Numbered from the stretch's first letter, positions 3,271-16,965 are shown. The stretch is DNA of 20,801 bases from a virus (IMGVR_UViG_3300030419_005468:16963-37763); one strand, 5' to 3'. Program-made: numbers and translations. Notes: generated from the letters alone by a model not told the origin.

Positions 3271-4002
3271 ATGGCGAATAAACAAATTCATAGAGTTAGT
3301 CCTGAACTAACCGATGATGCTCAATTCACTAGTATTGAGTCGATTCCTACAACTATGCTTAAAGATGGAGATACGATTTTGGTCTATCCTGGTGAGTATA
3401 GTGACCCGCGTACGTCTAACGTGGCCAACGTTACAATTCAAGGCTTTGGCGGGAATAAAGATGTTGTATTTAATGGATTTTCCATTATGTCTGACGGTCC
3501 TGGGGGCGCAAATGTTGCGATTAAAAACGTAACAATTCGTTCTGCAGGTCTTATTGTTGGTAATACTGCTTCTACAGTTAAAGTAGAAGATTGCGTTATT
3601 GATGGTACTTCTGGCCCAAGTAAAGTTGGTGCTCTAGGTATTGCTAACGCCGCAATTACTATCGGTGTTCTAGATTCAAATGCAGCTGTTGCAGCAACTG
3701 ATGCAGCCGCAGTCGTTAGTCTTGAACGCTGTTCAATCGGTTCTAATATTAGTGGAGGTTATGGTATTGTTGCGCATAATAATTCCGGCTCTTTGACAGT
3801 ACGTGATTGTACTGTTGCTACGGATTGTGGCATGATGATTAATGTTGCAACTACTATTGAACATAGTACATTTACAGGGGCTAATGCTTATGCTCTTGCT
3901 ATTGCTGCTGGCGGAACTCCAACTGCTACAGTTCGTGCATCTGTTGCGGCTGCGGCTAATGCAGGTAATATGACAGAAACTGTCGTTGCACTTATTTCGT
4001 AA
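3271..4002 (+). CDS. Right-handed beta-helix virion protein
   Basis: A 243-residue protein with DGDTILVYPGEYSD near residues 32-45, the entry motif of right-handed parallel beta-helix (pectate-lyase-like) folds. After it come regular short beta-rungs such as VTIQGF, VAIKNVTIRS, VKVEDCVIDG, VSLERCSIG, LTVRDCTV and TTIEHSTFTG. The C-terminal third is rich in Ala, Thr and Gly. There is no catalytic signature of a lyase or glycosidase, so I call a structural decoration, spike or fibre-like protein rather than an enzyme. Signs of high expression are a near-perfect ribosome site AAAGGAG (3258-3264, six bases before the ATG), its own upstream promoter candidate, and a base composition richer in G and C than its neighbours. 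It may be a major virion component. Confidence 0.75.
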   Translation: MANKQIHRVSPELTDDAQFTSIESIPTTMLKDGDTILVYPGEYSDPRTSNVANVTIQGFGGNKDVVFNGFSIMSDGPGGANVAIKNVTIRSAGLIVGNTASTVKVEDCVIDGTSGPSKVGALGIANAAITIGVLDSNAAVAATDAAAVVSLERCSIGSNISGGYGIVAHNNSGSLTVRDCTVATDCGMMINVATTIEHSTFTGANAYALAIAAGGTPTATVRASVAAAANAGNMTETVVALIS

Positions 4003-4019
4003 TAAAGGAGAAATTAATT

Positions 4020-4415
4020 ATGTCGATGATTAAAAAGACGGTCACTGGTAGCACAGAAGCATATAAACTTGTTAAAAATGCAAAAAATGCGCCTACGACA
4101 GCTAAAGGAGGCACTCAACGTACTTCTTTCACTGGTTCAAGTGATGGAAGATCAGGGGCTGGAGCAGCAAGTGGGAAAAAGTATCTCAAAAATGCTCCAG
4201 GTTTAGTAGATCAGGGTCCGGTTATGATGGAACCTCAAAATAATAAACAACCTAATAATACTACTAGCGGTGGTCCTAATGCTGGCGTAAATAAAAAGTA
4301 TTCTGCATCTAATGAGAATGTTAATTCTGGTATGGGTGGAAAAGTTTATACCCCGATGAAGCCGTTTGGCGCATCAGGTTCTCAAGCCCCTTTCAGTAAT
4401 AATGTGAAGAAATAA
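4020..4415 (+). CDS. Disordered low-complexity phage protein
   Basis: A 131-residue protein of unknown function. After a short basic N-terminus (MSMIKKTVTGSTEAYKLVKN) almost the whole chain is Gly, Ser, Asn, Pro, Lys and Thr, with no predicted hydrophobic core, cysteine or membrane segment. It is therefore probably intrinsically disordered, with repeated short elements such as KKYLKNAPG and KKYSASNEN. It follows the beta-helix gene by 17 bases and has an equally strong ribosome site (AAAGGAG at 4004-4010), so the two are probably co-expressed at a high level. That makes a virion or scaffold-like role plausible, but nothing in the sequence proves it. Confidence 0.65.
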   Translation: MSMIKKTVTGSTEAYKLVKNAKNAPTTAKGGTQRTSFTGSSDGRSGAGAASGKKYLKNAPGLVDQGPVMMEPQNNKQPNNTTSGGPNAGVNKKYSASNENVNSGMGGKVYTPMKPFGASGSQAPFSNNVKK

Positions 4416-4417
4416 TT

Positions 4418-4636
4418 ATGGCTCGAAAAACATTTGGATCAGGAAAAGGTGAAGGTAAGGTCGGAAGAATAGGCGATAATCGCTATGGTCTTCGTGAGCA
4501 ATACGATCCTAAAGTAAAAGAACAAACTTTAGAATTTTATCGTAGTGGTCATAATGTTACTGTAACTGAAGTTAAAAATCCAAATTTACAAACTGTTGCT
4601 ACTGTTAAAGGACCAAAGGTTACATTTAAAGAATGA
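4418..4636 (+). CDS. Small conserved-looking phage protein, function unknown
   Basis: A 72-residue protein that I do not recognise. It opens with a glycine- and lysine-rich segment (MARKTFGSGKGEGKVGRIGD). The second half reads like a small beta-hairpin (HNVTVTEVKN, LQTVATVKG, PKVTFKE). It starts three bases after the previous stop without a clear Shine-Dalgarno sequence, which suggests translation by re-initiation. Its TGA overlaps the next ATG in the ATGA arrangement. Position places it with the virion genes. Confidence 0.65.
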   Translation: MARKTFGSGKGEGKVGRIGDNRYGLREQYDPKVKEQTLEFYRSGHNVTVTEVKNPNLQTVATVKGPKVTFKE

Positions 4637-4734
4637 ATATACCCGAAGTTTTTCAAAGATCACCTCGGTATACTAAAAAGAAAAAGATTAAAAAAATCAA
4701 AAAGAAAAAAGTTAAAACTCGGAAAAGTAAGTAG
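4633..4734 (+). CDS. 33-residue lysine-rich ORF at the convergent junction
   Basis: The ATG at 4633 overlaps the stop of the preceding gene (ATGA). The frame encodes MNIPEVFQRSPRYT followed by an almost pure Lys/Arg tail ending TRKSK and a TAG. The last 23 bases overlap the 3' end of the convergent methyltransferase-like gene. The final 13 bases before and after its stop (AAAAGTAAGTAGC) also occur at the end of the small DUF6496-like gene (3130-3142). Coupled placement and a coherent basic protein support a real gene, but it is short and AT-rich, so chance is possible. If real, it would bind nucleic acid or acidic surfaces. Confidence 0.5.
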   Translation: MNIPEVFQRSPRYTKKKKIKKIKKKKVKTRKSK

Positions 4735-5272
4735 CTAAATTTCTAATCCAAGAATCTTTATAAGGCGCACACACTAGTGGTTGCGCCTTACTTGTTTTTA
4801 AGACTTTATTGTATATTTTTTTATTATTATTTACATCTACACTTAAAAATACAAAATCTTCATCAGTCATCCATGAATAGTCAAAATCTATACCATCAAT
4901 TGTTATAATTTTTATCATATCTTTAGCAGGTGATGCATCAATTAGTTTTCTACTTATTAATGCTCTATTAGATTCTATTTCTAAACCTACTTGTTTTATG
5001 TGTGGATATTGTCGATGTAAATCAAACATGCTATATGGATATATTCCACTTCCTACTAATACTATTGATTTGCAGCTTTTAAATTTATATCTTTGTTTCT
5101 TTTCTACTAGAGTTTTAATTATCCAAGCATTTAATTGAGCTTTTTCATAGGCAAGATGATACCCTTCTTTCTTAAAACGTCTTAAATGTCTCATTTCATC
5201 ATAAGATACTAACTCTTTCCAAGTTATTTCTTCTTTTTTAATATCATCTATTGTAAATTTTGCTAATTTCAT
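4712..5272 (-). CDS. Class I SAM-dependent transferase, nicotianamine-synthase-like
   Basis: A Rossmann-type core is visible: SIVLVGSGIYPYSMFDLHR (glycine loop V73-G76) followed by QVGLEIESNRALISRKLI, where the acidic end of beta-strand 2 (E98) would bind the SAM ribose, and then DMIKIITIDG. The spacing and the loop GSGxxPxS are closer to nicotianamine synthases than to ordinary methyltransferases. Those enzymes transfer the aminocarboxypropyl group of SAM rather than a methyl. I set the start at the ATG at 5272 (186 residues), preceded by GGAG; the ATG at 5293 has no ribosome site and would lengthen the overlap with the upstream gene. It is the last gene of the leftward block. Its 3' end contains the hairpin terminator of the opposing block. 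Fold confidence is good, reaction uncertain. Confidence 0.65.
   Translation of the reverse strand: MKLAKFTIDDIKKEEITWKELVSYDEMRHLRRFKKEGYHLAYEKAQLNAWIIKTLVEKKQRYKFKSCKSIVLVGSGIYPYSMFDLHRQYPHIKQVGLEIESNRALISRKLIDASPAKDMIKIITIDGIDFDYSWMTDEDFVFLSVDVNNNKKIYNKVLKTSKAQPLVCAPYKDSWIRNLATYFSEF
4761..4799 (+). terminator. Intrinsic terminator of the rightward virion block
   Basis: A perfect nine-base stem, TAAGGCGCA (4761-4769) with TGCGCCTTA (4782-4790), encloses a 12-base loop that itself holds the palindrome CACTAGTG. The stem is followed on the + strand by CTTGTTTTT. On the minus strand no T-run follows the stem, so it should stop only rightward transcription. It lies 26 bases beyond the last rightward stop codon and inside the coding sequence of the leftward methyltransferase-like gene. 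Confidence 0.75.
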
Positions 5273-6368
5273 TAGCTGATATCTCCGCTCCATTTAGATT
5301 TATTTTATTACTGTTTGGATATTTAGGATTACTTAATATATTATTTATAATATCTGGTAGTTCCTTAAAATTAGCTCTTGAACATACCTTAAAAAAATCA
5401 TAAGGTTTTAAAATACTAGTTCTTACGAATTGTTCTTGTTTTTGCCCGTCATCTCTAGGGATAATTATCGCGGGTATACCACTTTTTAGAATTTCCATTG
5501 TGCTATTATAACCACCATATGTTATATATAATGCACAAGAGCTAAGTAATTTATACATATTTTCTATAAAGGGAACCATAACCACATTATCTTTAGTTTT
5601 AGATTTAATATTTTTTAGATAACGATTAGCTATTGGCATTATAAATTTATAATCTGGAAACTTATCTGCGATATTTACTATTTCTTTAAATATCAACATC
5701 CCTTCTTCTTTATTTAAACCAGTACTTACAAATATATTATTATTTTGTTTTTTATAATTTTTTATATTTGGATTACATACATAGCCAGTGTAAGTTATTT
5801 TTTCATCTAGTTCTTCTATTACTTCTGATGGATTATGCATACGTACTCTATCAGAAAACAATGGTAAATAATCAGGATCTCCATGCACAAGGACTGTCTC
5901 TGCATAGTATTTACAGATTACATTTTGTGTATGTGCTACCCAATCTTGTAAACTCTCTTGATGGGGTTCATCCCAAGGAAAATCTCTAATACTTATTATT
6001 AGTTTTATTCCACGTTTTTTTGCTTCTTCAAAAAATGAAAAGTATTCGTGAGAAAACTGATGCCTACAAAACGGGAATCCTTCGCATATAATAACTTTTA
6101 CGGGATACGTATCAAGAATCTTAATCCATTCTTTCTTACGGAGCAAGACAAGCTCTCTACTCATTAAGAATTTAAAAATGTTTTTTATATCGCTTGGAAT
6201 GTATGCCTTTAGAAACGAAGTTCTTTCACAACCATCGTAAGAAATTGGTGGGTCAAAAAGTTGGTCAACAACAAGAACACGATGTCTTTTTGCTACTTCT
6301 TCCGCAATAAACTTGGTTCTCATACAGTGACCTAAACCACGGTAATATTGCGTGAGGAAAACAATCAT
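5244..6368 (-). CDS. GT-B glycosyltransferase, MurG/COG4671-like
   Basis: A 374-residue protein with the two-domain pattern of GT-B glycosyltransferases. The N-terminal nucleotide-fold domain begins MIVFLTQYYRGLGHCMR, where GxGH is the acceptor-side glycine loop of the MurG-like group. The segment ETVLVHGDPDYL near 157 and the switch IFVSTGLNKEEG near 212 separate the domains. The C-terminal donor-binding region is YITYGGYNSTMEILKSG through IIIPRD and QEQ (281-313), the usual nucleotide-sugar contact. It would transfer a sugar from a nucleotide-sugar donor; acceptor (DNA base, virion protein, host surface or small molecule) is not shown. Its start overlaps the thyX stop by four bases (ATGA). 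It overlaps the following gene by 29 bases. Confidence 0.85.
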   Translation of the reverse strand: MIVFLTQYYRGLGHCMRTKFIAEEVAKRHRVLVVDQLFDPPISYDGCERTSFLKAYIPSDIKNIFKFLMSRELVLLRKKEWIKILDTYPVKVIICEGFPFCRHQFSHEYFSFFEEAKKRGIKLIISIRDFPWDEPHQESLQDWVAHTQNVICKYYAETVLVHGDPDYLPLFSDRVRMHNPSEVIEELDEKITYTGYVCNPNIKNYKKQNNNIFVSTGLNKEEGMLIFKEIVNIADKFPDYKFIMPIANRYLKNIKSKTKDNVVMVPFIENMYKLLSSCALYITYGGYNSTMEILKSGIPAIIIPRDDGQKQEQFVRTSILKPYDFFKVCSRANFKELPDIINNILSNPKYPNSNKINLNGAEISANEISKIYNR

Positions 6369-7024
6369 TCACTGATAAATTCCGTAATCATTGGAAATAC
6401 TTGTGCAAGTGCCTCAGCACAAGCAATAGCTACTTCTCTATGTTCTTTTTGTGTTTCTGGACCTGAGCGAAGTTCAACATAATGAATCCAAGAACGAATT
6501 GTCCCATTCATATATAATTTACTTTCCATATTACCCTCTGGTAAAACAGCTCTAGCTTGCTCTTTAGCAATGCCATTTGCTATTGCCCAGTTATACGCTT
6601 CAAGAACTTCACCCATAACTAAGGATTGTCGCATTTTCCAGTTTGCTTGAATATTAGCGTTGTCTATTTCAATAGAGTTTTGTCTATTTTTATTATCTTG
6701 TAATCTTGCTTCTCTCATTATAAAATCTAAATCTTCTGTAGGATCAGCATATCTTTGAGAAAATTCTTGAAATGAAAAAGAACGATGACGAAGTATTTGT
6801 CTAGCAATATCTCTTGTTGTTGTAATTTCAAGACAAACTGATGCCATTTCAAAAGGAGACCAATGTTTATGTTTAATTAGATACCTAATTAGCTTTTCAC
6901 TGGTTTTTGTATTACCTTGGTTTGAAGGATTAGATACTCTTGCACAATAAGAAATAAGATCTAATATACTATTACCAACACTATCATGTGATGGTATTGA
7001 GTGAGCTTTTAGTTTAACTTTCAT
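6365..7024 (-). CDS. thyX: FAD-dependent thymidylate synthase
   Basis: ThyX makes dTMP from dUMP using methylenetetrahydrofolate, FAD and NADPH. The family signature RHRx7SxR is complete (R79-H80-R81, S89, R91 in RHRSFSFQEFSQR). The upstream HWSPFEMASV (HxSPFE-type FAD/dUMP segment) and the later MNGTIRSWIHYVELRSGPETQKEHREVA are in the expected order. Length (219) is normal. Unlike ThyA it does not release dihydrofolate, so no phage DHFR is needed. The start overlaps the end of purC by 11 bases and the stop overlaps the glycosyltransferase start by four. It sits with the reductase, MazG and PurC genes as part of a dNTP supply module suited to an AT-rich genome. Confidence 0.97.
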   Translation of the reverse strand: MKVKLKAHSIPSHDSVGNSILDLISYCARVSNPSNQGNTKTSEKLIRYLIKHKHWSPFEMASVCLEITTTRDIARQILRHRSFSFQEFSQRYADPTEDLDFIMREARLQDNKNRQNSIEIDNANIQANWKMRQSLVMGEVLEAYNWAIANGIAKEQARAVLPEGNMESKLYMNGTIRSWIHYVELRSGPETQKEHREVAIACAEALAQVFPMITEFISE

Positions 7025-7715
7025 TTAGTACTCTTTGTACCTCTCGATATCCGGCTAGTAAATCACCACTATCATTTCTAAATAAATCTTTGTCAAAACT
7101 TTCATTTTTATCATTCCAAAGTCGCATAGTATCAGGACATACTTCATCAGCAAGTAATATTGTACCGTTTTCTGTTAAACCAAATTCTAATTTAAAATCT
7201 ACAAGTTTTAACTTACATTTAGCAAAAATACTTGTTAGTACTTCATTAATATGAGTAGCTTCTTTACGAAGATAGTGCAAAGTAAGTTTATCAGTAATAT
7301 CTAGAGCTGTAATTGCATCTTCAGCAATAGGAGGATCATTTAAATCGTCATCTTTTATACAGAACTCAATAATAGTATTTTTAAGAGCTTTACCTACTTC
7401 CATACCATATCGTTTACAGAAAGTTCCCGCAGCTATATTTCTTACTATAACTTCTAATGGGATAATCTTTACTTGATGACAGATATGCTCTGTAGGACTT
7501 ATTTTTTCTATAAAATGTGTAGCAATCTTATGCTTATGTAATTTATTAAACATTGTTGCACTAATATCACAGTTAAGTTCTCCCTTACCGACAAACTGTG
7601 CTTCTTTAGCGCGATTACCCGCAGTTGCATCATCTTTAAACTGTAATTTTACTTTTCCTATATCATGTTGATATATTTTTTTTGCTTTACCTTCATATAA
7701 AAATTCACCTGTCAT
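7014..7715 (-). CDS. purC: SAICAR synthetase (purine biosynthesis)
   Basis: PurC joins CAIR and aspartate with ATP to give SAICAR in de novo purine synthesis. Family landmarks are in order: YEGKAKKIY at the N-terminus, KIIPLEVIVRNIAAG (signature 1, near residues 83-97), LVDFKLEFG (signature 2) and LADEVCPDTMRLW near the C-terminus. At 233 residues it matches short bacterial PurC. I chose the ATG at 7715, which sits in an ATGA overlap with the upstream stop and has AAAGGA eight bases before it; an upstream in-frame start would add ten unrelated residues inside the previous gene. No other pur gene is visible here. It is an auxiliary metabolic gene known from marine phages, where it would raise purine supply during infection. 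Confidence 0.97.
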   Translation of the reverse strand: MTGEFLYEGKAKKIYQHDIGKVKLQFKDDATAGNRAKEAQFVGKGELNCDISATMFNKLHKHKIATHFIEKISPTEHICHQVKIIPLEVIVRNIAAGTFCKRYGMEVGKALKNTIIEFCIKDDDLNDPPIAEDAITALDITDKLTLHYLRKEATHINEVLTSIFAKCKLKLVDFKLEFGLTENGTILLADEVCPDTMRLWNDKNESFDKDLFRNDSGDLLAGYREVQRVLNES

Positions 7716-8218
7716 ACTTGTTTTCCTTTTTCTGTTTGTATCCATTTTTTACCTGTTTTAGTAGAACTTACTTCTTCTACTTGGTAAATATATTCAAAAG
7801 AGGTTTGATTAAAAGTTTTACTTTGGAACATTGCTATACGTTCATATGGTCCAATATGTTTAATCTTATCTGTTGTATTATATAGTATTAAAAATATTTC
7901 GTTTCTAAATCCGTGTCCAAAATAAGTAGGAGCATCTAAAACTATTAAACCTTTTTCATAGACTAAATTACTATCACTTATTATTTCTAAATATGTATAC
8001 GGATCATCTATTTGTAAATAGAATCCTGTTTTAATAATTTTTCTTTGAAAAGGCTTAATTTCAATATCTTGCTCAATACAGGCTTGTAAGCTATAGTAAA
8101 GATCAAAAGGAGTATATTGCTCTACAATCCATGCTTTACCGTATTCTTTTTCAAGTTTAAGTGCTAAACTACTCTTTTCAAATTTTATCTTATGCAGTAT
8201 AGGAAGATCTAAGTTCAT
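7712..8218 (-). CDS. dUTPase/dCTP-deaminase-superfamily protein with degenerate active site
   Basis: The 168-residue chain follows the jelly-roll order of trimeric dUTPases. YTPFDLYYSLQACIEQDIEI then KIIKTGFYLQI corresponds to motif 1 and the beta-turn after it. YLEIISDSNLVYEKGLIV corresponds to the motif 2 region. PTYFGHGFRNEIFLILYN corresponds to motif 3, and IKHIGPYERIAMF to motif 4. In my hand alignment the catalytic Asp of motif 3 (usually IDxxYRG) is replaced by Gly and the RSS of motif 2 by SDS. The glycine-rich motif 5 is absent. It may have lost dUTP hydrolysis, bind another nucleotide, or act as a sensor. It starts 29 bases inside the exonuclease gene and ends in an ATGA overlap with purC. 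Fold confidence is good; dUTPase activity is doubtful. Confidence 0.7.
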   Translation of the reverse strand: MNLDLPILHKIKFEKSSLALKLEKEYGKAWIVEQYTPFDLYYSLQACIEQDIEIKPFQRKIIKTGFYLQIDDPYTYLEIISDSNLVYEKGLIVLDAPTYFGHGFRNEIFLILYNTTDKIKHIGPYERIAMFQSKTFNQTSFEYIYQVEEVSSTKTGKKWIQTEKGKQV

Positions 8219-9044
8219 CTAAATTTTCTTCTCCATACTTACCGCTAATTATTGCATCTTCATTATATCTTTTAAGATTTATTAATTTTTCATTTCTTTC
8301 TAATACTTCACGACTTGCATTAAGATTTTGTATATATTTAGCTCGTCCTTTTACTGGAAGAGATTTTAATAATGTATCAAATGTTTTATGTTCTTTAGCC
8401 AACCCTTGAGCACGTTTTGGGCCTATACCTTCAACACCGATTATATTATCACTTTTATCACCTTCGATTATTCGTGATAAAAGATATTCATCAGGAGATA
8501 AATCAAAATTTTCTTTAAGTGTTTGTTTGGTGATTTCTTTACGGGAAAATATATTAAATATACTTACATTATCATCAATTAACTGATATAGATCTCTATC
8601 TGAAGAAATAATCCAAGTATGGTCAAAAGATTTAGCTATATGTTTTACAAGGTACGTAATTATATCATCTGCTTCTATACCTCTAAATTTTAAAACTTCT
8701 TCATTAAGTGTTTCGGGTAGTGCATTAAGAACTCCAAAGAATTCCTCATACTTTTTTGCTTCATCTTCTTCTTTAGGTTTTTTGCGATTTTGTTTATATT
8801 CATCATACATATTCATACGATAGTAGCTACGACCAAAATCAAAACAAACTATTGTTTTACCTGCTTCGTAGCTTTTTGATAAACTTTGTATTGTACGTTG
8901 ATAATCAGATGCAAAATTATTATAGTTAACTCTTTGTAACCAGCGATAGGCAACATTATTTGCATCTACTAATAGTAGATTATTATACGAGCTATCTATA
9001 ACCATGTTTAGCTCGGCTAAATCATTCCAAGATTTTGTATTCAT
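8190..9044 (-). CDS. 5'-3' exonuclease (FEN / T4 RNase H family)
   Basis: A flap-type nuclease of 284 residues that would remove RNA primers and 5' flaps during replication. Acidic metal ligands appear at the family positions: LLLVDANN (D27), CFDFGRSYYRMN (D69) followed by YDEYKQNR, GIEADDIITYL (E124, D126, D127), ISSDRDLYQLI (D149, D151) and EGDKSDNI (D196, D199). The helix-hairpin-helix GVEGIGPKRA (203-212) binds duplex DNA. It resembles the isolated 5' nuclease domain of Pol I and phage T5/T4 nucleases. The start at 9044 has AGGAG at the right distance and gives a short 13-residue leader; an ATG at 9005 is an alternative. A candidate promoter lies just upstream. Confidence 0.93.
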   Translation of the reverse strand: MNTKSWNDLAELNMVIDSSYNNLLLVDANNVAYRWLQRVNYNNFASDYQRTIQSLSKSYEAGKTIVCFDFGRSYYRMNMYDEYKQNRKKPKEEDEAKKYEEFFGVLNALPETLNEEVLKFRGIEADDIITYLVKHIAKSFDHTWIISSDRDLYQLIDDNVSIFNIFSRKEITKQTLKENFDLSPDEYLLSRIIEGDKSDNIIGVEGIGPKRAQGLAKEHKTFDTLLKSLPVKGRAKYIQNLNASREVLERNEKLINLKRYNEDAIISGKYGEENLDELRSSYTA

Positions 9045-9066
9045 GTTATTCTCCTGTATTATAAGT

Positions 9067-9095
9067 ATTATATATTACAGAAGCCATTTATGCAA
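9067..9095 (-). promoter_or_regulatory. Candidate internal promoter for exonuclease-purC-thyX segment
   Basis: Reading leftward, TTGCAT (9090-9095) is followed after 17 bases by a perfect -10 TATAAT (9067-9072), in one of the few real gaps (9045-9087) of the leftward block. The -35 match is only three of six and the region is very AT-rich, so chance is possible. A start near 9060 would leave a short leader carrying the AGGAG ribosome site. Confidence 0.33.
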
Positions 9096-9537
9096 GATTT
9101 GTTTGACTTTTAAGTGCTTTAATCCAGTCATCAAGTTGTGTTACTTTAAAGTGACACCCAAATGATTTAATTTCTACATAATGATCCACTTCTATTTCAT
9201 CACTCCATCCAACAAAATCTTTTGAGCGATTCCATCTAAAAATAAGCAGAGGTTTCTTTTTCATAACCTCTGCTTCTCTTTCTGCTTGTCTCCAAAAATT
9301 AAGTAAATCTGTAGTCTTAGCTGTTAAAAGATTATTCCATTGAATATCTTTATAATGTTTACACTCTATACAATAGGGCCATGCGGCTGTATCATGAGGA
9401 GTCCATAAATCACCTTTTAAATATTCTATAGCGCCAGAAAGAGGCATACGTTCAAATTCAAAATTAAGATGAGAGTTTAAATATCTTTTAATTTTAGCTT
9501 CGTAAGCAGAACCTTTAATTTTACTTTTATTAACCAT
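9088..9537 (-). CDS. PD-(D/E)XK nuclease, Hjc-type Holliday junction resolvase-like
   Basis: A 149-residue nuclease-like protein. It starts with basic KSKIKGSAYEAKIKRYLNS (E13), continues with FERMPLSGA, which parallels the RvpxSG strand of archaeal-type Hjc resolvases, then KGDLW (D43) and CIECKHYKD (E58, K60), the D...ExK catalytic core. Hjc-like enzymes resolve four-way junctions and branched DNA during packaging and recombination. It lies among replication and recombination genes, which fits. It has no obvious Shine-Dalgarno sequence and starts 13 bases after the glutaredoxin stop, so re-initiation is likely. Other PD-(D/E)XK families with the same core are possible. Confidence 0.78.
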   Translation of the reverse strand: MVNKSKIKGSAYEAKIKRYLNSHLNFEFERMPLSGAIEYLKGDLWTPHDTAAWPYCIECKHYKDIQWNNLLTAKTTDLLNFWRQAEREAEVMKKKPLLIFRWNRSKDFVGWSDEIEVDHYVEIKSFGCHFKVTQLDDWIKALKSQTNLA

Positions 9538-9550
9538 TTTTTATTCATAA

Positions 9551-9799
9551 TTAATGCCCATAGTTACTCGTTGTTTCCTCAAAGTATTGCATTAATTCAT
9601 TATAGCCCCCAATATATCTGTCGTTTATAAAGATTTGCGGTACTGTCCTTGCTTTAGGTACTACTTTTAATAAATCTTCTTTTGACCAAAGACTAGTAAT
9701 ATTTCTTTCATCAATTTTATATTTTCTACTATGTAATTCTTTTTTTGCGAGAGAACAATATAGACAATTATCTTTAGTCCAAACTGTTGCTTTAATCAT
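9551..9799 (-). CDS. grx: Glutaredoxin
   Basis: An 82-residue thioredoxin-fold protein with the active site CLYC (C12-C15), the cis-proline segment TVPQIFI (P54) and the glutathione-binding GGYNEL (G64-G65). All are in standard glutaredoxin order. It would reduce disulfides, and the likely client in this phage is the ribonucleotide reductase encoded upstream in the same block, whose C-terminal cysteine pair needs re-reduction. The start is the ATG at 9799 because AAAGGAG lies 11 bases ahead of it; a TTG at 9823 would place that ribosome site inside the gene. Confidence 0.93.
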   Translation of the reverse strand: MIKATVWTKDNCLYCSLAKKELHSRKYKIDERNITSLWSKEDLLKVVPKARTVPQIFINDRYIGGYNELMQYFEETTSNYGH

Positions 9800-9826
9800 A
9801 ATATATATTACTCCTTTAGGCAATAT

Positions 9827-10213
9827 TTATCTTTCTTCGGACCTTTCTACCGAAAATTTTCCGCCCGGATATCTTGACTCTAATTTACGGATATTTTCTT
9901 TTATTATATCATATGGATCAAGATTAAGAGCCATACATGCTTGTGACCAATACCACATAATATCACCTAATTCACTTTTTAATTTATCTTTGTTTTCTGT
10001 ATTATATTCCTTACCTTGAAAAAATATTTTTTTAACTATATCATTAAATTCACCAATTTCACCAGATAATCCAATAGCTGCTGTTGATAATCTAGGAACA
10101 TCCATTCCATGATTAGCAAGTGTAGCTATAGTTCTCATATATACATCATTTGATTTACTTCCTTCTGATGTTACACCATCTACAAAAGATTGATAACTAT
10201 ATAAATCTATCAT
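9827..10213 (-). CDS. mazG: MazG-type nucleotide pyrophosphohydrolase
   Basis: This all-alpha NTP pyrophosphatase has the family motif EXXE...EXXD: E52-I-G-E55 in GLSGEIGEF and E81-L-G-D84 in SELGDIMWYW. These bind magnesium and the triphosphate. The length (128) is that of single-domain phage MazG. Proposed roles in phages are dNTP pool sanitation and recycling of bases from degraded host DNA; an effect on host ppGpp has been suggested and disputed. The start overlaps the upstream stop by four bases (ATGA), which indicates coupling to the unknown CPFAK gene. The glutaredoxin gene follows after 27 bases. Confidence 0.93.
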   Translation of the reverse strand: MIDLYSYQSFVDGVTSEGSKSNDVYMRTIATLANHGMDVPRLSTAAIGLSGEIGEFNDIVKKIFFQGKEYNTENKDKLKSELGDIMWYWSQACMALNLDPYDIIKENIRKLESRYPGGKFSVERSEER

Positions 10214-10650
10214 TTATTTCTCCATATTTTTTCTTTATATTCTTTAGACCAATTATCATAATAATTAGTTTTTTCTAAAGTCTTACGCGCTTCATTTAAT
10301 TTATATCTATTTTGTATTAAAAATAAAATTTTGTTATGCCCACAACTAGTATTTGTACCACCTATATATCCAGGATCCTCATAATGATCTATTAAAATTA
10401 CAACATCATCTCTTTGTGTATTTAACCTATCTTCTAATTTTTGTGCTTGAGTAGGAGATATATATTTAGTATATTCAATAATTATAACATCTAATTCGTT
10501 ATTCCAATTAAAAATTTGTTCTTCTATAAAATTTATATCTCCTTTAAGAATGATAAATTTAGCATTTTTAGCAAAAGGACAAATAATATTATTACTATTT
10601 GTTTTCTTTGTAGACACATATTTATGCCAATTATAAATAGGATTCGACAT
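10210..10650 (-). CDS. Unknown protein with ICPFAK motif
   Basis: A 146-residue protein that I do not recognise. Near residues 22-32 it has NIICPFAKNAKF, similar to the CPFA segment of some DUF1415-like proteins, but the rest does not clearly fit. Later come a hydrophobic strand ELDVIIIEYTKYIS, another VVILIDHYEDPGY and then GTNTSCGHNKILFLIQNRY. This suggests a small alpha/beta fold with Cys and His that could be catalytic or metal-binding. The C-terminus is charged and helical. It starts 20 bases inside the amidinotransferase gene with AAAGG just upstream and ends in an ATGA overlap with mazG. Sitting between amidinotransferase and MazG, it may act on the same substrate as the former, which is inference. 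Confidence 0.6.
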   Translation of the reverse strand: MSNPIYNWHKYVSTKKTNSNNIICPFAKNAKFIILKGDINFIEEQIFNWNNELDVIIIEYTKYISPTQAQKLEDRLNTQRDDVVILIDHYEDPGYIGGTNTSCGHNKILFLIQNRYKLNEARKTLEKTNYYDNWSKEYKEKIWRNK

Positions 10651-11677
10651 TACCTTTCCTTTTGATATCTGTTGTTATACAATGTAAACCACCATCCCAG
10701 AAATATCTATGTCTAAAAGGAGCTATTATTGGTTCAATTTTGTGTTTTTTAAAGTATTCAAAAACTTGTTTATTATAGCTTGAAACACATACAGTATGTT
10801 CATCTAAAGAAATTACATTTACATCAAAAACAGTTTCTTTTGCATATCCTACCCATTTAGATAGCCAAGTATCAATATAATTAAAAAATTCTTTTTCTCT
10901 ATATCTTTCATTATCAAACCAATAGGTATAGTTAGCTATTTCAGGAATAGATTTACTAAATTGATGCCATTCATCCAGTTTCTTCCAACTTTCTCCCTCT
11001 AATCTACAAGTATCCCAATTAGGAAATAATCCATCTGTATACATATATTCTGGTCTAAGTGTTAATAGAACTCCTGGTTTTAAAATAGCAAAACAACCAT
11101 CAGCATGACAACCTGGTGCTTCAAATTTAAAATTATGAGTTTGATAGTAAATAACATTAAAACCATCTGGTTCTAGTATTTTTTTAAGATATTTATATGA
11201 ATTTTCAAGATTAGCTCCATCATTAGAATCAACAATAATATCTTTTCCTAATCTTACAATTGATGGCGGAGCTAGTCCTAGAAAAGGTTTTTCATATCTG
11301 AAATATTTTTTATATTTTTCTAAAGGAATAGCTAAATCTTTTGTGGTTGATTTTTGAAGAGATTTAAATATTATATTATTACCTAATACTATCATTTCAT
11401 CTCTAGGATTCATAAGATAAGGCTCATTTCGTAACTGCGTTATGTTACTATAATTAGGACGGTAAACTTTTGCACCATATGTTTCAAATATTTTTATAAG
11501 ATTTTGATAATCTTCTTCTGTTTCATCTAATAAGTATCCAAGTAATCTTTTTGTAGTTGTACTCATATATTCTGTATGAAATTCATCAAGTATATTTTTA
11601 GAATATCCTTTACCAACCATTACTTCTTCAAGTGGCTGAAACTCAGTGTATGCTTGTGGTAATACTTCTTGTAGCAT
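10631..11677 (-). CDS. Glycine-amidinotransferase-like pentein enzyme
   Basis: A 348-residue pentein-fold protein similar to arginine:glycine amidinotransferase, which moves the amidino group of arginine to an amine. Landmarks in order: NPRDEMIVLGNNII (90-103), GKDIIVD, GCHADGCFAILKPGVLL (H191, D193) and WDGGLHCITTDIKRKG with the nucleophile C333. The match of HxD and GGxHC to the family is strong. In my hand alignment the Asp equivalent to human GATM D254 (FDAAD) is not present (APPSIVRLG here), so the reaction may differ. The start is the ATG at 11677 (GAGAGGG close ahead); TTG at 11689 is the alternative. It overlaps the speD-like gene by 35 bases and the next gene by 20. The two enzymes are probably coupled, in a polyamine or guanidino pathway. 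Confidence 0.85.
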   Translation of the reverse strand: MLQEVLPQAYTEFQPLEEVMVGKGYSKNILDEFHTEYMSTTTKRLLGYLLDETEEDYQNLIKIFETYGAKVYRPNYSNITQLRNEPYLMNPRDEMIVLGNNIIFKSLQKSTTKDLAIPLEKYKKYFRYEKPFLGLAPPSIVRLGKDIIVDSNDGANLENSYKYLKKILEPDGFNVIYYQTHNFKFEAPGCHADGCFAILKPGVLLTLRPEYMYTDGLFPNWDTCRLEGESWKKLDEWHQFSKSIPEIANYTYWFDNERYREKEFFNYIDTWLSKWVGYAKETVFDVNVISLDEHTVCVSSYNKQVFEYFKKHKIEPIIAPFRHRYFWDGGLHCITTDIKRKGNVESYL

Positions 11678-12008
11678 AATCCCTCTCAAAAAAACTCATT
11701 TTTATATTATATACAGAAAATTCCTCTAAAATATCTATCACCGTTTGTACATTAAAATTTTTACAACTATAAAGGTCAAATTGAAACTCTCCTGTATCCC
11801 AAGTATGAATACTAATATGGCTAGTATCAATAGCTGTTAATATAGTATATCCTTCATTTTGTTCTACAGTAGAATAATGTATATAAGGACCGCCTAATAT
11901 ATTCATATTTATTGCTTTAACTAAAATTTTTACTAAAAATTTTAATTTTTCTTCATCAAGAGTATCTGCATAGTTACCCATTAAAATTAGATGATAATGT
12001 TCCCTCAT
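11643..12008 (-). CDS. S-adenosylmethionine-decarboxylase-family (pyruvoyl) protein
   Basis: A 121-residue protein of the short prokaryotic SpeD family, whose members self-cleave to form a pyruvoyl cofactor and decarboxylate SAM (or, in some branches, arginine or ornithine). The core DTSHISIHTWDTGEFQFDLYSC holds S63 (pyruvoyl precursor), H68 and C82, matching the catalytic Ser63, His68 and Cys83 of the Thermotoga enzyme. The residue before the serine is Thr62 rather than the usual Glu, and WP is WD. These are changes at or near the cleavage and substrate pocket. The start overlaps the ribonucleotide reductase stop by one base (TAATG). Family is certain; substrate is not. No spermidine synthase of the classic type is visible. 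Confidence 0.85.
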   Translation of the reverse strand: MREHYHLILMGNYADTLDEEKLKFLVKILVKAINMNILGGPYIHYSTVEQNEGYTILTAIDTSHISIHTWDTGEFQFDLYSCKNFNVQTVIDILEEFSVYNIKMSFFERDYATRSITTSIH

Positions 12009-14131
12009 TAGATTTCACAACCATCTGAGTCACAAAATTTATTAGCGTCTGCATTTTCTCCTTCCTCTCCTAATAAATTAAAATTTAAAGGTTTTAAAGT
12101 ACTAGCATAAGTTTCAATCTCTGTTCTATCCATAGTAATATATGGTGCTTGAGCATAGCCATGGTCTGATATTGGAAGTAATGAAACACCTTTAAGTCGT
12201 GAATCAAAACATGATAACGCCCTTCCAATTTGGTCTGCTTCTGCTGGTTTAAATGTAATTGTAATGGATACTTGATTATCTGCCCAATAGTATTGCATAT
12301 CTGCTGCATTTGCAAATTGTTCCCAGATAGATACATCATGTTTTGAAATTGTACCTTCTGGATGGACAACAGGAAAATAAACAACTACAGTTCGTACTGG
12401 ATCAGAAACTGCTGGTTCAATACGATATCCTGCATCTTTTAAAATATCAATCATTGGAGATATAGCAGATAATCTAACAGTACGATAGTAGGATTCATTT
12501 TCTGCATAATGTATACCGGGAAGAGAACCTGCAACTAGACTTACTGTACCTGATGGTTTAACAGATGTTGTTTTACGAGATAAAGGAACACCCATCCATT
12601 CTGAGTATTTTTGATCAATATATTGAATATAAGTATAAGCACGATCACAATATTCATCTAAATATTTACGGCGACCAAATTTAAGAATAGCTTCTTGAAT
12701 ACCTGATTGTGAACAACCAATTCTACGATTACGTTTAATAACATCATTAGTATCTTGCCAATGAGTAGCCATAAGTGTAACAGCTTTTGCATAAAGATAT
12801 GCAAATTTAAGTGTACGTTGATAATCCCAATAATCATCATGTTTAGAAGGAAAAGTTTCAACTAAACAACATAATTCATAAGTTTCTAAAGATTGTTCTA
12901 AGCAAGGATTGCCTCCTGCTACACGACGATCTTTCCAATCAGCAGGGTCTTTCATGCGACTATATTGTTGCATATTATCTAACCATGCAAAACCTGGTTC
13001 TCCAGAAATTGCTATGGAGTTAGCAGCTTCAGTATAATCCATACCTACTCTTGCAAAAATAGAATTGTTAGAGGCCCAACGCCAACCCCCAAATTTATAT
13101 GCCCAAGAATTTTCACTATATTTCTTAGCAATTTCACTTCTTGAATCAAAATCATTATTATATAAATCATAATCTTGACTATTTAAAAGTTTTAGCTCTT
13201 CTGGAGCAGTTGCACCTGTTTCTACACTTGCTGTTTCCCAGTTTTTCATTTCCATAAAGGCTATATCATCAGGCTCAGAAAAAGCAATTTCAGCAGTACG
13301 TCTAACATTACCAGCGACTACTATTTTACCAATAATATTCATAATATCGGTAATATCTACAGAGCTTAATAGAGGATTATCAGATTTTGCTCTTTTAGTT
13401 AGAATATCTCTAATACCCTCAAGTCCGTGTTTTAATGGTTCTGGCCCTGATGCTACTCCGCCAAAACCCATAATTGGCTCTCCGTAGGGTCTAATACTAT
13501 TATAATTAAACTCTACAGGAGCAGAACCTTCTTCTAAGTAAGAATCAATTAGACATGATAAGGCTTCTACCCATCCTTCTCTTGAATCTTCAATATAGAT
13601 AAGTTCAGGAGAACCCTCTGGTTCTATGGATGCAATTTTATCTGCACCTTTTGTATCAAAACCTACACCTACACCTACCATACTCATATCCATTAAGAAG
13701 GCAAAAGATTTTGATAGTTCTGCGTCAATATCTTGTGTAGATACAAAAGCACAATTATTTAAAGCTGCCCCACCTTTTTCCCATATAAAAGGAGTACCCA
13801 TCATCCAAAGTCCTCGACCTGGGGGCATCCATTTAAATGCAAAAAGACGTTCAGCAGCTTCTTCTGCTAATTTATGTGCTTTTTTTTCATTCCATGTAAT
13901 ATATGATGCTACAGAATGAGTTTTCAAAATAGAAAAGAATCCTTCTACAACACGGAGTACGCAGTCTGCCCACGTTTCCATGTGACCGTCAGGTTTCATT
14001 CGTGAATATGTTCGGTAATAAGTAAACTCTGAAAGACCTCCATAACCCCAATTTACTGGTTTAGATCTGAGTTCTTCTTTAAAGTGATTTCGCAAAGCGA
14101 AAGTAATCGGATATTTTCCGGGTGCTAACAT
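12008..14131 (-). CDS. nrdJ: Class II adenosylcobalamin-dependent ribonucleotide reductase
   Basis: This 707-residue monomeric reductase converts ribonucleotides (probably triphosphates, like the Lactobacillus RTPR) to deoxyribonucleotides, using adenosylcobalamin as radical generator. LNNCAF provides C127. NPCLEQSLETYELCCLVE carries the thiyl radical residue C410, E412 and C421 with the same spacing as RTPR C408, E410 and C419. The C-terminal FCDSDGCEI holds the C700/C705 shuttle pair. VKPSGTVSLVAG is the phosphate-binding loop region. No NrdB is needed and no intein is seen. The ATG at 14131 has AAGGAG nine bases before it. The host must supply or import cobalamin. The 46-base gap upstream (14132-14177) has only a weak dyad near the ribosome site. 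Confidence 0.96.
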   Translation of the reverse strand: MLAPGKYPITFALRNHFKEELRSKPVNWGYGGLSEFTYYRTYSRMKPDGHMETWADCVLRVVEGFFSILKTHSVASYITWNEKKAHKLAEEAAERLFAFKWMPPGRGLWMMGTPFIWEKGGAALNNCAFVSTQDIDAELSKSFAFLMDMSMVGVGVGFDTKGADKIASIEPEGSPELIYIEDSREGWVEALSCLIDSYLEEGSAPVEFNYNSIRPYGEPIMGFGGVASGPEPLKHGLEGIRDILTKRAKSDNPLLSSVDITDIMNIIGKIVVAGNVRRTAEIAFSEPDDIAFMEMKNWETASVETGATAPEELKLLNSQDYDLYNNDFDSRSEIAKKYSENSWAYKFGGWRWASNNSIFARVGMDYTEAANSIAISGEPGFAWLDNMQQYSRMKDPADWKDRRVAGGNPCLEQSLETYELCCLVETFPSKHDDYWDYQRTLKFAYLYAKAVTLMATHWQDTNDVIKRNRRIGCSQSGIQEAILKFGRRKYLDEYCDRAYTYIQYIDQKYSEWMGVPLSRKTTSVKPSGTVSLVAGSLPGIHYAENESYYRTVRLSAISPMIDILKDAGYRIEPAVSDPVRTVVVYFPVVHPEGTISKHDVSIWEQFANAADMQYYWADNQVSITITFKPAEADQIGRALSCFDSRLKGVSLLPISDHGYAQAPYITMDRTEIETYASTLKPLNFNLLGEEGENADANKFCDSDGCEI

Positions 14132-14177: not shown

Positions 14178-16010
14178 TTACTGAATCACACTTATGTTAT
14201 TTTCTTTTATTATTGATAATTTATCGATTAATGGGTGGGTAAAATCATGAGAAATAAGAAATACATTTAATTCTTCTTCTTCTGATAGTACTTCTATTAA
14301 TTTTTCTTTTCCTTCATCATCTAATACACCTGTTATCTCATCTAAAAATAATAAATTTATACTACTTCCGCCTAATTTTGATAATAAACTTCTGATTGCT
14401 AATAAGATAGCTGTTTGAATTCTGCTGAATTCTCCTCCAGAAACTGTTTCAATAGGTGTATCTATTCCATTATTTCTTACAATTATATTTAATTTTTCTT
14501 TATCTAAACGAAATGAAACTTGAAATTGACCATCAGAAAGTAAGGATAGATAATAGTTAATAGATAATTCTAATTCTTTAGTTAAATTTTCTAATTTAAA
14601 CGCAACTATTCCTGATGTACTAAATGCTTTCTTTAATATATTTATATTATTAACCTTAGTAGATAATTTAATAATATCATTCTTTATTATTGTTTGTCTA
14701 CTTAAAAAATCTTCTTTTTGCTCTGTTAGAGCATCTACTTTTGCATTATGTATTCCTACCTTTTGGTTATGTTCAGTAGCATTTTGTATTTTTATAGTAT
14801 TTGCTTTAACTTGTTTTTCTGTCGTAACTAACTCATATTGTAATTGATCATAATTAGGGTGTATAGTAGGTAATGTTTCATCAATCATACGAGTAAGTTG
14901 TTCAAACTTTTCTATAGTTTTTTGATTCTTATTATATTTTTCTACATCATACTGATAACTATTAACGTGTTCTTTAGCATATTTTAGTTCTTCTACTAAA
15001 CCTTCAATTCTTATTACTGTATTACATAAATCATTATTTAAATCTTTATGTAATTGTTTTGATTGAGAATTATCTATTATTTGTCCACAAGCATAACAAG
15101 TATCAGACATATCAATATTCATTAAAGATTTTTCAATATTTTGTTTATGTAGCTTTGCTTTAGTTACTTCTTGATTTAATTCTTCTAAGTCAGAAAACAT
15201 ATTAGGATCTGTCTCTGGAATTTTCATAGACATATCAAAATTTAAGTTGTTTCTTTCTTCTATATTTAAATTATTTTTGTCAATTTTTTTACAAGTTTGA
15301 GCGTATTCTTCTACTTCTTTTTCAATAATAGCTAAACTTTTAATCATATCTTGATTAGTTTCTGGAACTTCTATATAATCCATTTTTTCTGGTATAGTAG
15401 TAGTGCTTAAAAATGACTCAATAGTTTTAAGTTCTGCTTGTGTTTGTAAATATTGTTTATCAATAGAATTAGCTTTTATTTTAAGTGTTTCACCTATTTT
15501 TAAATATTTTTCTAAGTTAAATAAGTTTATTAAAAACTTTTTTCTATTTGTATCTGTTGCTTTAAGAAATTCCAATAAATCTATAGAACTTTGATAGGTA
15601 AGTTGTGAAAATATATTAAAATCAAGACCTAGTAATTCTTGTATTTTTTTATAGGTATCTAATACTTTATGTTCACTTAAATCTTTATTATCTTGTTTAA
15701 AAAGAACAGAACTTTTAGCTCCTATTCTATCAACCTTAACAATATAATTCTTATTATCAACTTTAAAATCTAATTCAGCCCACCATTCTTTTGAATTTGA
15801 CCATCTATTAACAATATCTGATTTTTTAATACTTTTTACATTTTTACTAAATAATATTTCTTGTAATATTAATGCGATAGAAGATTTACCACTACCATTA
15901 GGTGCAGTTAATTGCGTTATTTTACTTTTATTAAAATCAATTATGTTTTCCTTTTTCTGATACGAAAACATATTTGAAAATTTTAATGTATTAAGAATTA
16001 CCTTTGACAT
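14178..16010 (-). CDS. SbcC/Rad50-like recombination ATPase (T4 gp46 type)
   Basis: A 610-residue SMC-like ATPase, the partner of the nuclease encoded two genes upstream. Walker A is APNGSGKSS (36-44), the Q-loop QLTYQSS is near 136-142, the signature SGGE is at 524-527, and Walker B LLFLDEITGVLDD ends at D557-E558, followed by LISHD. Between the ATPase halves lies a heptad-rich coiled coil with a zinc hook DTCYACGQ (C305, C308) at its apex. The coil is short compared with bacterial SbcC and similar to T4 gp46. The complex resects double-strand ends to start recombination-dependent replication. The start overlaps the PP-loop gene by 20 bases. Confidence 0.93.
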   Translation of the reverse strand: MSKVILNTLKFSNMFSYQKKENIIDFNKSKITQLTAPNGSGKSSIALILQEILFSKNVKSIKKSDIVNRWSNSKEWWAELDFKVDNKNYIVKVDRIGAKSSVLFKQDNKDLSEHKVLDTYKKIQELLGLDFNIFSQLTYQSSIDLLEFLKATDTNRKKFLINLFNLEKYLKIGETLKIKANSIDKQYLQTQAELKTIESFLSTTTIPEKMDYIEVPETNQDMIKSLAIIEKEVEEYAQTCKKIDKNNLNIEERNNLNFDMSMKIPETDPNMFSDLEELNQEVTKAKLHKQNIEKSLMNIDMSDTCYACGQIIDNSQSKQLHKDLNNDLCNTVIRIEGLVEELKYAKEHVNSYQYDVEKYNKNQKTIEKFEQLTRMIDETLPTIHPNYDQLQYELVTTEKQVKANTIKIQNATEHNQKVGIHNAKVDALTEQKEDFLSRQTIIKNDIIKLSTKVNNINILKKAFSTSGIVAFKLENLTKELELSINYYLSLLSDGQFQVSFRLDKEKLNIIVRNNGIDTPIETVSGGEFSRIQTAILLAIRSLLSKLGGSSINLLFLDEITGVLDDEGKEKLIEVLSEEEELNVFLISHDFTHPLIDKLSIIKENNISVIQ

Positions 16011-16965
16011 ATTCTAATCCTGTTAATAATTTATACTCTAACCAATCTTCTGATAATTTTTTATTTTCAAAATGTTTATCTAATTTATCTTCTAATCTTT
16101 TTTTATATCTTAGTGTACTACTTCTCCAAGTTAAAAATGTTTGATAAGCATATCTACATTCTTTACGCAATAAATTTTCAGCTAAATTCATTTCTTTTAA
16201 GCTTTTTTCCCAACCAGTATATTTAATTCTATATGCTAAATTATCATAAGATTCATATAAAAAACTATTATCTTTCTCTCCTGGTTGCGAAGAATCGTGA
16301 TTTTTAGCATAGTGACAAAAGATAGGTTCTACACTAGTAAAAGTCATAAATTTATTATTTGTATTAATTGCATATTTTACATAATTAGGACTATCTTCCC
16401 ACCAACCTAGTCCTACTCCTGTATAATAATCTGGATTATGCCCACTATTTATAAGTATTTCTTTTTCACCAATAAATTCAAATAGATATGTTAACGCAGT
16501 TTGACTAACAGAATGAGTAAATTGTCCATATTTTACTGCTTTTGGTATAACATTTCTTAAAAGTTTATCGTAAGATAAAGGAATAATTTTTTGTTTTATT
16601 TTTCTATCTTTACAATATTTAGCGGCATATATTAAATCAAAATCATTCTGTCCATTAAAAAGTCGCATACTTAAAACTCTAAATGGGATATTTAATTGAT
16701 AGAAAGTTTCAGCACATACTTCACTATCTATTCCTCCACTCATTCCCAATACAAAGTTATAATCTTTATACTTCTCGGCAAATTTTTGTACTAAAATAAA
16801 ATAATCATCTCTAATTGATTTTCCATGATTTTTATAGGGAGGCACACAAATATAAGAACCTAGACTGGGAATTTTCTCATGACAATAATAATTTTTAAGA
16901 GGTCTCATAAATGTATTTGTCTGAATATATTTCCAATAAGTTCTATTTATTGTAATATCATACAT
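15991..16965 (-). CDS. PP-loop (N-type) ATP pyrophosphatase superfamily protein
   Basis: A 324-residue protein with the adenylating PP-loop motif FVLGMSGGIDSEV (S76-G-G-I-D-S81). Strand IPFRVLSMRLFNG and ILINSGHNPDYYTG further on fit the same fold. Members activate a carbonyl or thiol-accepting base by adenylation (QueC, asparagine synthetase, NAD synthetase, tRNA thiolation enzymes). It lacks the C-terminal cysteine zinc site expected of QueC and any glutaminase domain, and does not carry CxxC pairs typical of tRNA thiolases. I therefore leave the substrate open. It overlaps the gp47 gene by eight bases and gp46 by 20, so it is embedded between two subunits of one nuclease. Confidence 0.8.
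   Translation of the reverse strand: MYDITINRTYWKYIQTNTFMRPLKNYYCHEKIPSLGSYICVPPYKNHGKSIRDDYFILVQKFAEKYKDYNFVLGMSGGIDSEVCAETFYQLNIPFRVLSMRLFNGQNDFDLIYAAKYCKDRKIKQKIIPLSYDKLLRNVIPKAVKYGQFTHSVSQTALTYLFEFIGEKEILINSGHNPDYYTGVGLGWWEDSPNYVKYAINTNNKFMTFTSVEPIFCHYAKNHDSSQPGEKDNSFLYESYDNLAYRIKYTGWEKSLKEMNLAENLLRKECRYAYQTFLTWRSSTLRYKKRLEDKLDKHFENKKLSEDWLEYKLLTGLEYVKGNS

Follow-up and report, generated by a model that had tools for sequence, protein, structure and literature searches.

The window, the whole stretch of DNA that was analysed, is 20,801 nucleotides long and is part of a virus record of 37,763 bases. It contains a run of overlapping genes on the minus strand, comprising a SpeD-family gene, an amidinotransferase gene and a gene with a CPFAK motif (the CPFAK gene), flanked by a ribonucleotide reductase gene and a short gene from the ORF list:

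12008..14131, minus strand: class II (B12-dependent) ribonucleotide reductase (phrog_367 9.6e-125, PF17975 1.6e-26), directly upstream of SpeD
12008..11643, minus strand: SpeD-family gene, 121 aa (PF02675, E 3.5e-13)
11677..10631, minus strand: phage-type amidinotransferase of predicted GATM/HsvA/StrB fold, 348 aa from the ATG, with Ala136 at the D254 position
10650..10210, minus strand: CPFAK gene, 146 aa, CPFAK motif at C24; candidate minimal heme-thiolate (AglA/DUF6875-like) hydroxylase
9827..10213, minus strand: 128 aa gene, directly downstream of CPFAK with a 4-base overlap

Gene content and surroundings

The overlaps described in an earlier note on this DNA were confirmed. SpeD and the amidinotransferase overlap by 35 bases, counted from the amidinotransferase ATG, and the gene coordinates likewise agree with the 20-base overlap of the amidinotransferase and CPFAK and with the CPFAK motif. 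A TTG at 11689, upstream of this ATG, is an alternative start giving 352 aa. SpeD overlaps the ribonucleotide reductase gene by 1 base, and pelagiphage SpeD likewise adjoins ribonucleotide reductase in several genomes. The 128 aa gene, which from its sequence we take to be MazG-like, has a homologue at the equivalent place in locus L003.

Along with the class II ribonucleotide reductase, the neighbourhood of the three genes includes ThyX, SAICAR synthetase, glutaredoxin, a RusA-like resolvase and an SSB-like protein, and presumably, judging from sequence, gp46/47-like genes in the same block. This is the dense replication and nucleotide region of a marine, probably T4-like, phage. Elsewhere in the window are a PP-loop ATPase-like protein with a weak NAD_synthase match (15991-16965) and a radical SAM protein of unassigned role (1132-2121).

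The amidinotransferase

In amidinotransferases, arginine donates its amidino group to a Cys, giving a Cys-amidino intermediate, and ornithine is released. Among solved relatives, the best sequence match by phmmer was HsvA, a polyamine amidinotransferase (9e-17), with AGAT at 1e-11. An AlphaFold model made with 58 phage sequences (pLDDT 87.2) matched StrB1 (Z 28.1), HsvA (Z 28.0) and AGAT (Z 27.5), with the arginine deiminases lower at about 24. The likeness to HsvA, human AGAT/GATM and StrB1 covers the whole fold (Z 27-28) and includes the catalytic Cys, the HxD motif, the D170 equivalent, and the C-terminal GGxHC and SYL end. It differs from these enzymes in having Ala136 and Ser139 at the D254 and D257 positions, with 22-26% identity in the structural alignment, and it forms its own phage family (phrog_25854) apart from them. 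By its predicted structure the protein has the GATM/HsvA/StrB fold, and the phage family to which it belongs is large.

The HxD (H191/D193) and GGxHC (C333) motifs to which the earlier note had drawn attention are conserved in the 58 relatives; there is no variation at Cys333, His191 or Asp193, and Asp93 is present in 57 of the 58 phage sequences. The protein therefore has the fold of AGAT/GATM together with its Cys (C333), its His (H191) and the counterparts of D170 and D305 (D93 and D193). The catalytic Asp254 is missing, as the note had suspected. The model shows a transferase fold with Ala136 at this position, rather than a standard GATM site. The D254 column is not Asp in 51 of the 58 phage sequences, the counts being N 21, S 16, D 7 and A 4, and cellular homologues have FDAAD there in 10 out of 12. 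Since the Asp is missing in most of the phage family, its absence is characteristic of the family rather than a defect of this one gene.

With the His-supporting Asp gone, the enzyme could have become an arginine or guanidine hydrolase (deiminase), or be catalytically dead, and its fold does also match arginine deiminase. This is unlikely, however, given that the remaining catalytic residues are kept across deep divergence and that the transferases are the closest folds. Creatine synthesis was considered (a marine virus paper discusses GATM/GAMT) and set aside; no methyltransferase partner was seen.

Association of SpeD with the amidinotransferase

The earlier note had proposed that SpeD and the amidinotransferase may belong to one polyamine or guanidino pathway. 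Alignment-based scans produced 80 SpeD loci and 80 amidinotransferase loci, single-sequence scans of viral_contigs having yielded few. Adjacency of the two genes is confined to this virus and L003, which is 91-95% identical. Apart from copies of the virus's own region and L003, only the L023-L025 loci hold both genes, where they are 4.2 kb apart and on opposite strands. In the L103 record, SpeD is approximately 7 kb from an amidinotransferase that is 49% identical to that of this virus. When whole records were searched, about 6 of the 64 other amidinotransferase records contained SpeD, in one case as a weak match and in another interrupted by an in-frame stop, and 1 of the 40 SpeD records contained the amidinotransferase; as most records are fragments, these co-occurrence counts are lower bounds. 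The adjacency is clearly local. The pair is largely not conserved together among phages, which is the outcome that the note itself had named as speaking against its pathway, and the window yielded no evidence for the role in DNA modification that the note had suggested.

It is improbable that the two enzymes act together. As an example of how they might, an amidinotransferase with an HsvA-like polyamine acceptor would free ornithine, SpeD as an ornithine decarboxylase would convert this to putrescine, and amidination of putrescine would give agmatine. The sequence match to HsvA, the long overlap of the two genes and their joint presence in L103 and in L023-L025, which have the SpeD nearest to that of this virus apart from L003, are consistent with such a route. 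Set against these are the restriction of the adjacency to this virus and L003, the low co-occurrence counts, and the L104-L107 records, which retain the amidinotransferase and CPFAK while SpeD is absent within 13-28 kb.

In L023-L025, a stretch of no more than 6.5 kb (positions 5995-12321) brings together SpeD, the amidinotransferase and CPFAK with radical SAM genes, a class-III aminotransferase and a probable 2OG-Fe oxygenase. This gene group looks like a biosynthetic cluster.

The SpeD decarboxylase

SpeD enzymes self-cleave at a Ser to generate a pyruvoyl group. The S63, H68 and C82 residues identified earlier are present and invariant in the alignment, so that the protein has the pyruvoyl-site Ser, His and Cys required of the SpeDA/SpeDC type; the motifs are TSHISIHTWD and YSC. 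The T62 that precedes S63 in place of Glu is also real, but it is not peculiar to this protein. Pelagiphage-type SpeD proteins have Thr there too, so that the residue is a feature common to an enzyme class that is already known. These relatives have TSH and W-D, whereas cyanophage and cellular SpeD have ESH and WP. The Pro of true S-adenosylmethionine (SAM) decarboxylases is thus absent, with HTWD in this SpeD as opposed to HTWP in the cyanophage and cellular proteins. This Pro is fully conserved in true SAM decarboxylases and not conserved in arginine decarboxylases, and four residues, Thr and Tyr among them, mark ornithine decarboxylases (PMC10407285).

The 12 phage records that match SpeD at E <= 1e-5, HTVC201P among them, all come from pelagiphages or from a related fosmid phage. 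The SpeD of pelagiphage HTVC201P decarboxylates arginine, not ornithine or lysine, and does not replace SAM decarboxylase, and related freshwater phage SpeD proteins are proven ornithine decarboxylases (PNAS 2023, PMC9992855). In a tree of 108 sequences, pelagiphage-type SpeD is split from cyanophage SpeD with support of 94/96 and this SpeD is on the HTVC201P side, in a small subclade with L003, L023, L026 and L027 away from HTVC201P itself; with its long branches and few columns, and with no proven ornithine decarboxylase included, the tree does not separate arginine from ornithine decarboxylases. The proven ornithine decarboxylases (from a Lake Baikal phage and others) are not among the phage collection matches listed.

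An ordinary SAM decarboxylase serving spermidine synthesis, like that of cyanophages, is very improbable. The name S-adenosylmethionine decarboxylase does come from Pfam, PHROGs and phage annotations, but SpeD scores 36.4 bits against TIGR03330, the equivalog for the true enzyme, where the cut-off is 75.65, and both the signature residues and the tree point away from it. The earlier suggestion that this is not a SAM-type enzyme stands, on its signature and on its failure to group with true SAM decarboxylases in the phylogeny. SpeD is very probably, as judged from its sequence, an arginine or ornithine decarboxylase of the SpeDA/SpeDC type.

As it groups with pelagiphage homologues that include a proven arginine decarboxylase, this type of SpeD is already known, and by itself the gene is another member of a documented phage enzyme class. 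It shares with HTVC201P SpeDA and freshwater SpeDC (Li et al. 2023, PMC9992855) the class 1b SpeD fold, the TSH pyruvoyl site, W-D for W-P, the position beside ribonucleotide reductase and the non-SAM character. It is about 33% identical to the HTVC201P protein and falls in the separate subclade; both arginine and ornithine are candidate substrates.

Among cellular relatives of SpeD, that of L181 adjoins a spermidine synthase gene, and in L196 the new-type SpeD is followed by a true SpeD and then SpeE. The latter arrangement resembles the clusters of PMC10407285 in which the extra SpeD is an ornithine decarboxylase. The same row of three genes, like the published SpeDC-SpeD-SpeE clusters, is seen in L196-L198 and L188 (approximately 4000-5700), from delta-type proteobacteria. 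Microcystis phage MaAM05 (L022) has two SpeD homologues adjoining speE, one with a typical SESH..HTWPE and the other strongly diverged and without W-P.

Genetic context of the amidinotransferase in other phages

The CPFAK gene is found in 39 of 91 amidinotransferase loci. After dereplication it is present in 27 out of 62 amidinotransferase loci, compared with 1 out of 27 loci that have SpeD only (Fisher P 1.2e-4). Where the amidinotransferase and CPFAK occur together, they are on the same strand in 25 of 27 loci and have 0-2 genes between them in 26 of 27. In L103-L107, where the amidinotransferases are 43-49% identical and genes other than SpeD are upstream, the overlap with CPFAK is exactly 17 bases in all five. 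The gene whose association with the amidinotransferase is strongly conserved is CPFAK, not SpeD.

Many phage loci have the order CPFAK, ATE_C-like GNAT protein, DUF6614, amidinotransferase. The DUF6614 match is 1.6e-20; the GNAT protein matches PF04377 at up to 3.7e-4, which is under the cut-off. Within the window, neither a GNAT-like nor a DUF6614 gene was seen. In cluster 10 (L131:5226-5666, L140:7044-7475 and L147:5232-5663), a 143 aa protein has a weak likeness to the C-terminus of arginine-tRNA-protein transferase. In approximately 25 loci its gene is closely linked to those of CPFAK and the amidinotransferase.

A second class of locus has the order cupin, amidinotransferase, DUF6614, QueE. 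The cupin, the amidinotransferase (sometimes in tandem copies), DUF6614 and QueE occur in L108-L110, L116-L118, L120, L128 and others. A queuosine-transporter-like gene upstream in these loci is, we assume from its sequence, YhhQ. The amidinotransferase might on this basis serve nucleic-acid modification, such as the amidination of a 7-deazaguanine base, but this is most improbable, with no QueE-type gene recognised in the window or near L103-L107 and QueE mostly absent from the CPFAK-linked loci.

CPFAK homologues are present in 23 cyanophage records, and tblastn found the amidinotransferase in only 3 phage records. As cyanophages carry CPFAK without the amidinotransferase, the link between the two is strong but not absolute, and the distribution of the sequences suggests that CPFAK can act without the amidinotransferase. 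The homologues in S-PM2 (L013:3983-4447) and 22 other cyanophage records are hypothetical proteins, and that of S-PM2 is just before baseplate gene 25.

The CPFAK protein

The model of the CPFAK protein is confident (pLDDT 92.2). When structures were realigned, the top five matches were all AglA, with Z 6.0-6.5 over 137-139 of the 146 residues and the next match at Z 4.4, although Z values of 6.0-6.5 are too low to exclude that the arrangement is simply a common one. With Foldseek alone, the model had no match at E <= 0.001, and the sequence had only weak, unconvincing matches to solved structures. Matches of the model to a methyltransferase, IF3 and SepF (Z <= 4.4) were set aside as a common arrangement.

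The residues C24-P25-x-A27 and H89 are invariant in the family alignment. None of 20 members matched Pfam YqcI/YcgG (PF08892). In a profile alignment, C24 coincides with the Cys that bacterial YqcI/YcgG proteins have in their FPC.GAK.A motif, a weak match (hhalign probability 1%, E 0.05), and this Cys aligns with Cys44 of AglA. AglA is the prototype YqcI/YcgG heme-thiolate enzyme, which hydroxylates a guanidine nitrogen and has Cys44 as its heme ligand (PMC12866846). Another family member, ChmN, hydroxylates arginine and has Cys47 as its ligand (PMC10849742). The CPFAK protein resembles AglA and the other YqcI/YcgG guanidine N-hydroxylases (ChmN, GntA and DcsA) in its best structural match, the placing of its Cys by profile and its arginine-related context. 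It differs from AglA in its length of 146 aa as opposed to 274 aa, in having no match to the Pfam YqcI/YcgG family and in that its heme binding is a prediction.

A second likeness is to DUF6875 (PF21780), which 7 of the 20 members match, the best at 9.2e-5; scores of 20.2 and 16.1 bits were seen, where the cut-off is 24.5. By hhalign the probability is 90.4, over about 44 columns around the aligned Cys, and matches from the CPFAK genome search fall in DUF6875 proteins. Heme binding has been reported for DUF6875 proteins (PMC13307353). The likeness to these cytochrome P422 proteins is in the N-terminal W...CPF(A)K.A region and is limited to those columns, and the known DUF6875 members oxidise tryptophan-type substrates.

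CPFAK is on this evidence a candidate minimal heme-thiolate hydroxylase of the AglA/DUF6875 kind. As a Z value of about 6 can reflect a common arrangement, the heme reading is a promising lead rather than an established result. No reductase that could partner a heme enzyme was recognised.

Many of the phage loci have an arginine hydroxylase-like gene together with GNAT/ATE-like genes, as does the argolaphos cluster with its YqcI/YcgG hydroxylase and GNAT aminoacyl-tRNA ligases (PMC8976061). The phage loci differ in showing no phosphonate genes, the window has no GNAT gene, and the amidinotransferase is absent from the argolaphos gene list as given in the available part of that source.

Bacterial YqcI/YcgG genes repeatedly adjoin a conserved protein of about 195-220 aa (L212-L218, L220, L222-L224 and L226). 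From its appearance we take this neighbour to be DUF1989/urea-associated.

Possible function of the three genes

The three genes are best read, with confidence that is about evenly balanced, as an arginine/guanidine oxidation module of the amidinotransferase and CPFAK beside an independent polyamine decarboxylase, SpeD, in one transcription block. SpeD would process itself and decarboxylate arginine to agmatine or ornithine to putrescine. This would raise the polyamines of the host, from a position in the nucleotide-metabolism block behind ribonucleotide reductase. The amidinotransferase would use Cys333 to accept an amidino group from arginine and hand it on to an amine, releasing ornithine. 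CPFAK would bind heme through Cys24 and N-hydroxylate a guanidine, either arginine or the amidinotransferase product. The use of arginine and the yield of ornithine by the amidinotransferase are a possible meeting point with SpeD, although nothing here shows a dependence of SpeD on the amidinotransferase.

There is a real chance that the amidinotransferase and CPFAK unit is a phage arginine-metabolite pathway. SpeD-type phage polyamine enzymes are already documented, and the new part is this conserved unit; in the literature searched, no description was found of a phage unit of an amidinotransferase and a CPFAK heme-hydroxylase-like protein with a family-wide loss of D254. As the phage family is without the catalytic Asp and has its own partners, a phage match to glycine amidinotransferase is not safely taken for a gene of creatine or polyamine metabolism. 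Should CPFAK prove to be a heme enzyme, it would be an unusually small thiolate-heme oxygenase-like protein, and it would point to an arginine metabolite made by the phage.

That the unit is joined in other phages by an arginyl-tRNA-transferase-like GNAT protein and DUF6614 suggests an arginine-derived small molecule. It is conceivable, if doubtful, that many uncultivated phages encode a small arginine-based module, composed of the D254-less amidinotransferase and a minimal heme-thiolate guanidine hydroxylase, often with the GNAT protein and DUF6614, and that during infection this module yields an N-hydroxyguanidine or a hydroxyarginine compound. The window would then carry its two-gene core. 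Such a compound might, for instance, serve as a nitric-oxide-like signal or a metal ligand, or it might act on the host or on competitors.
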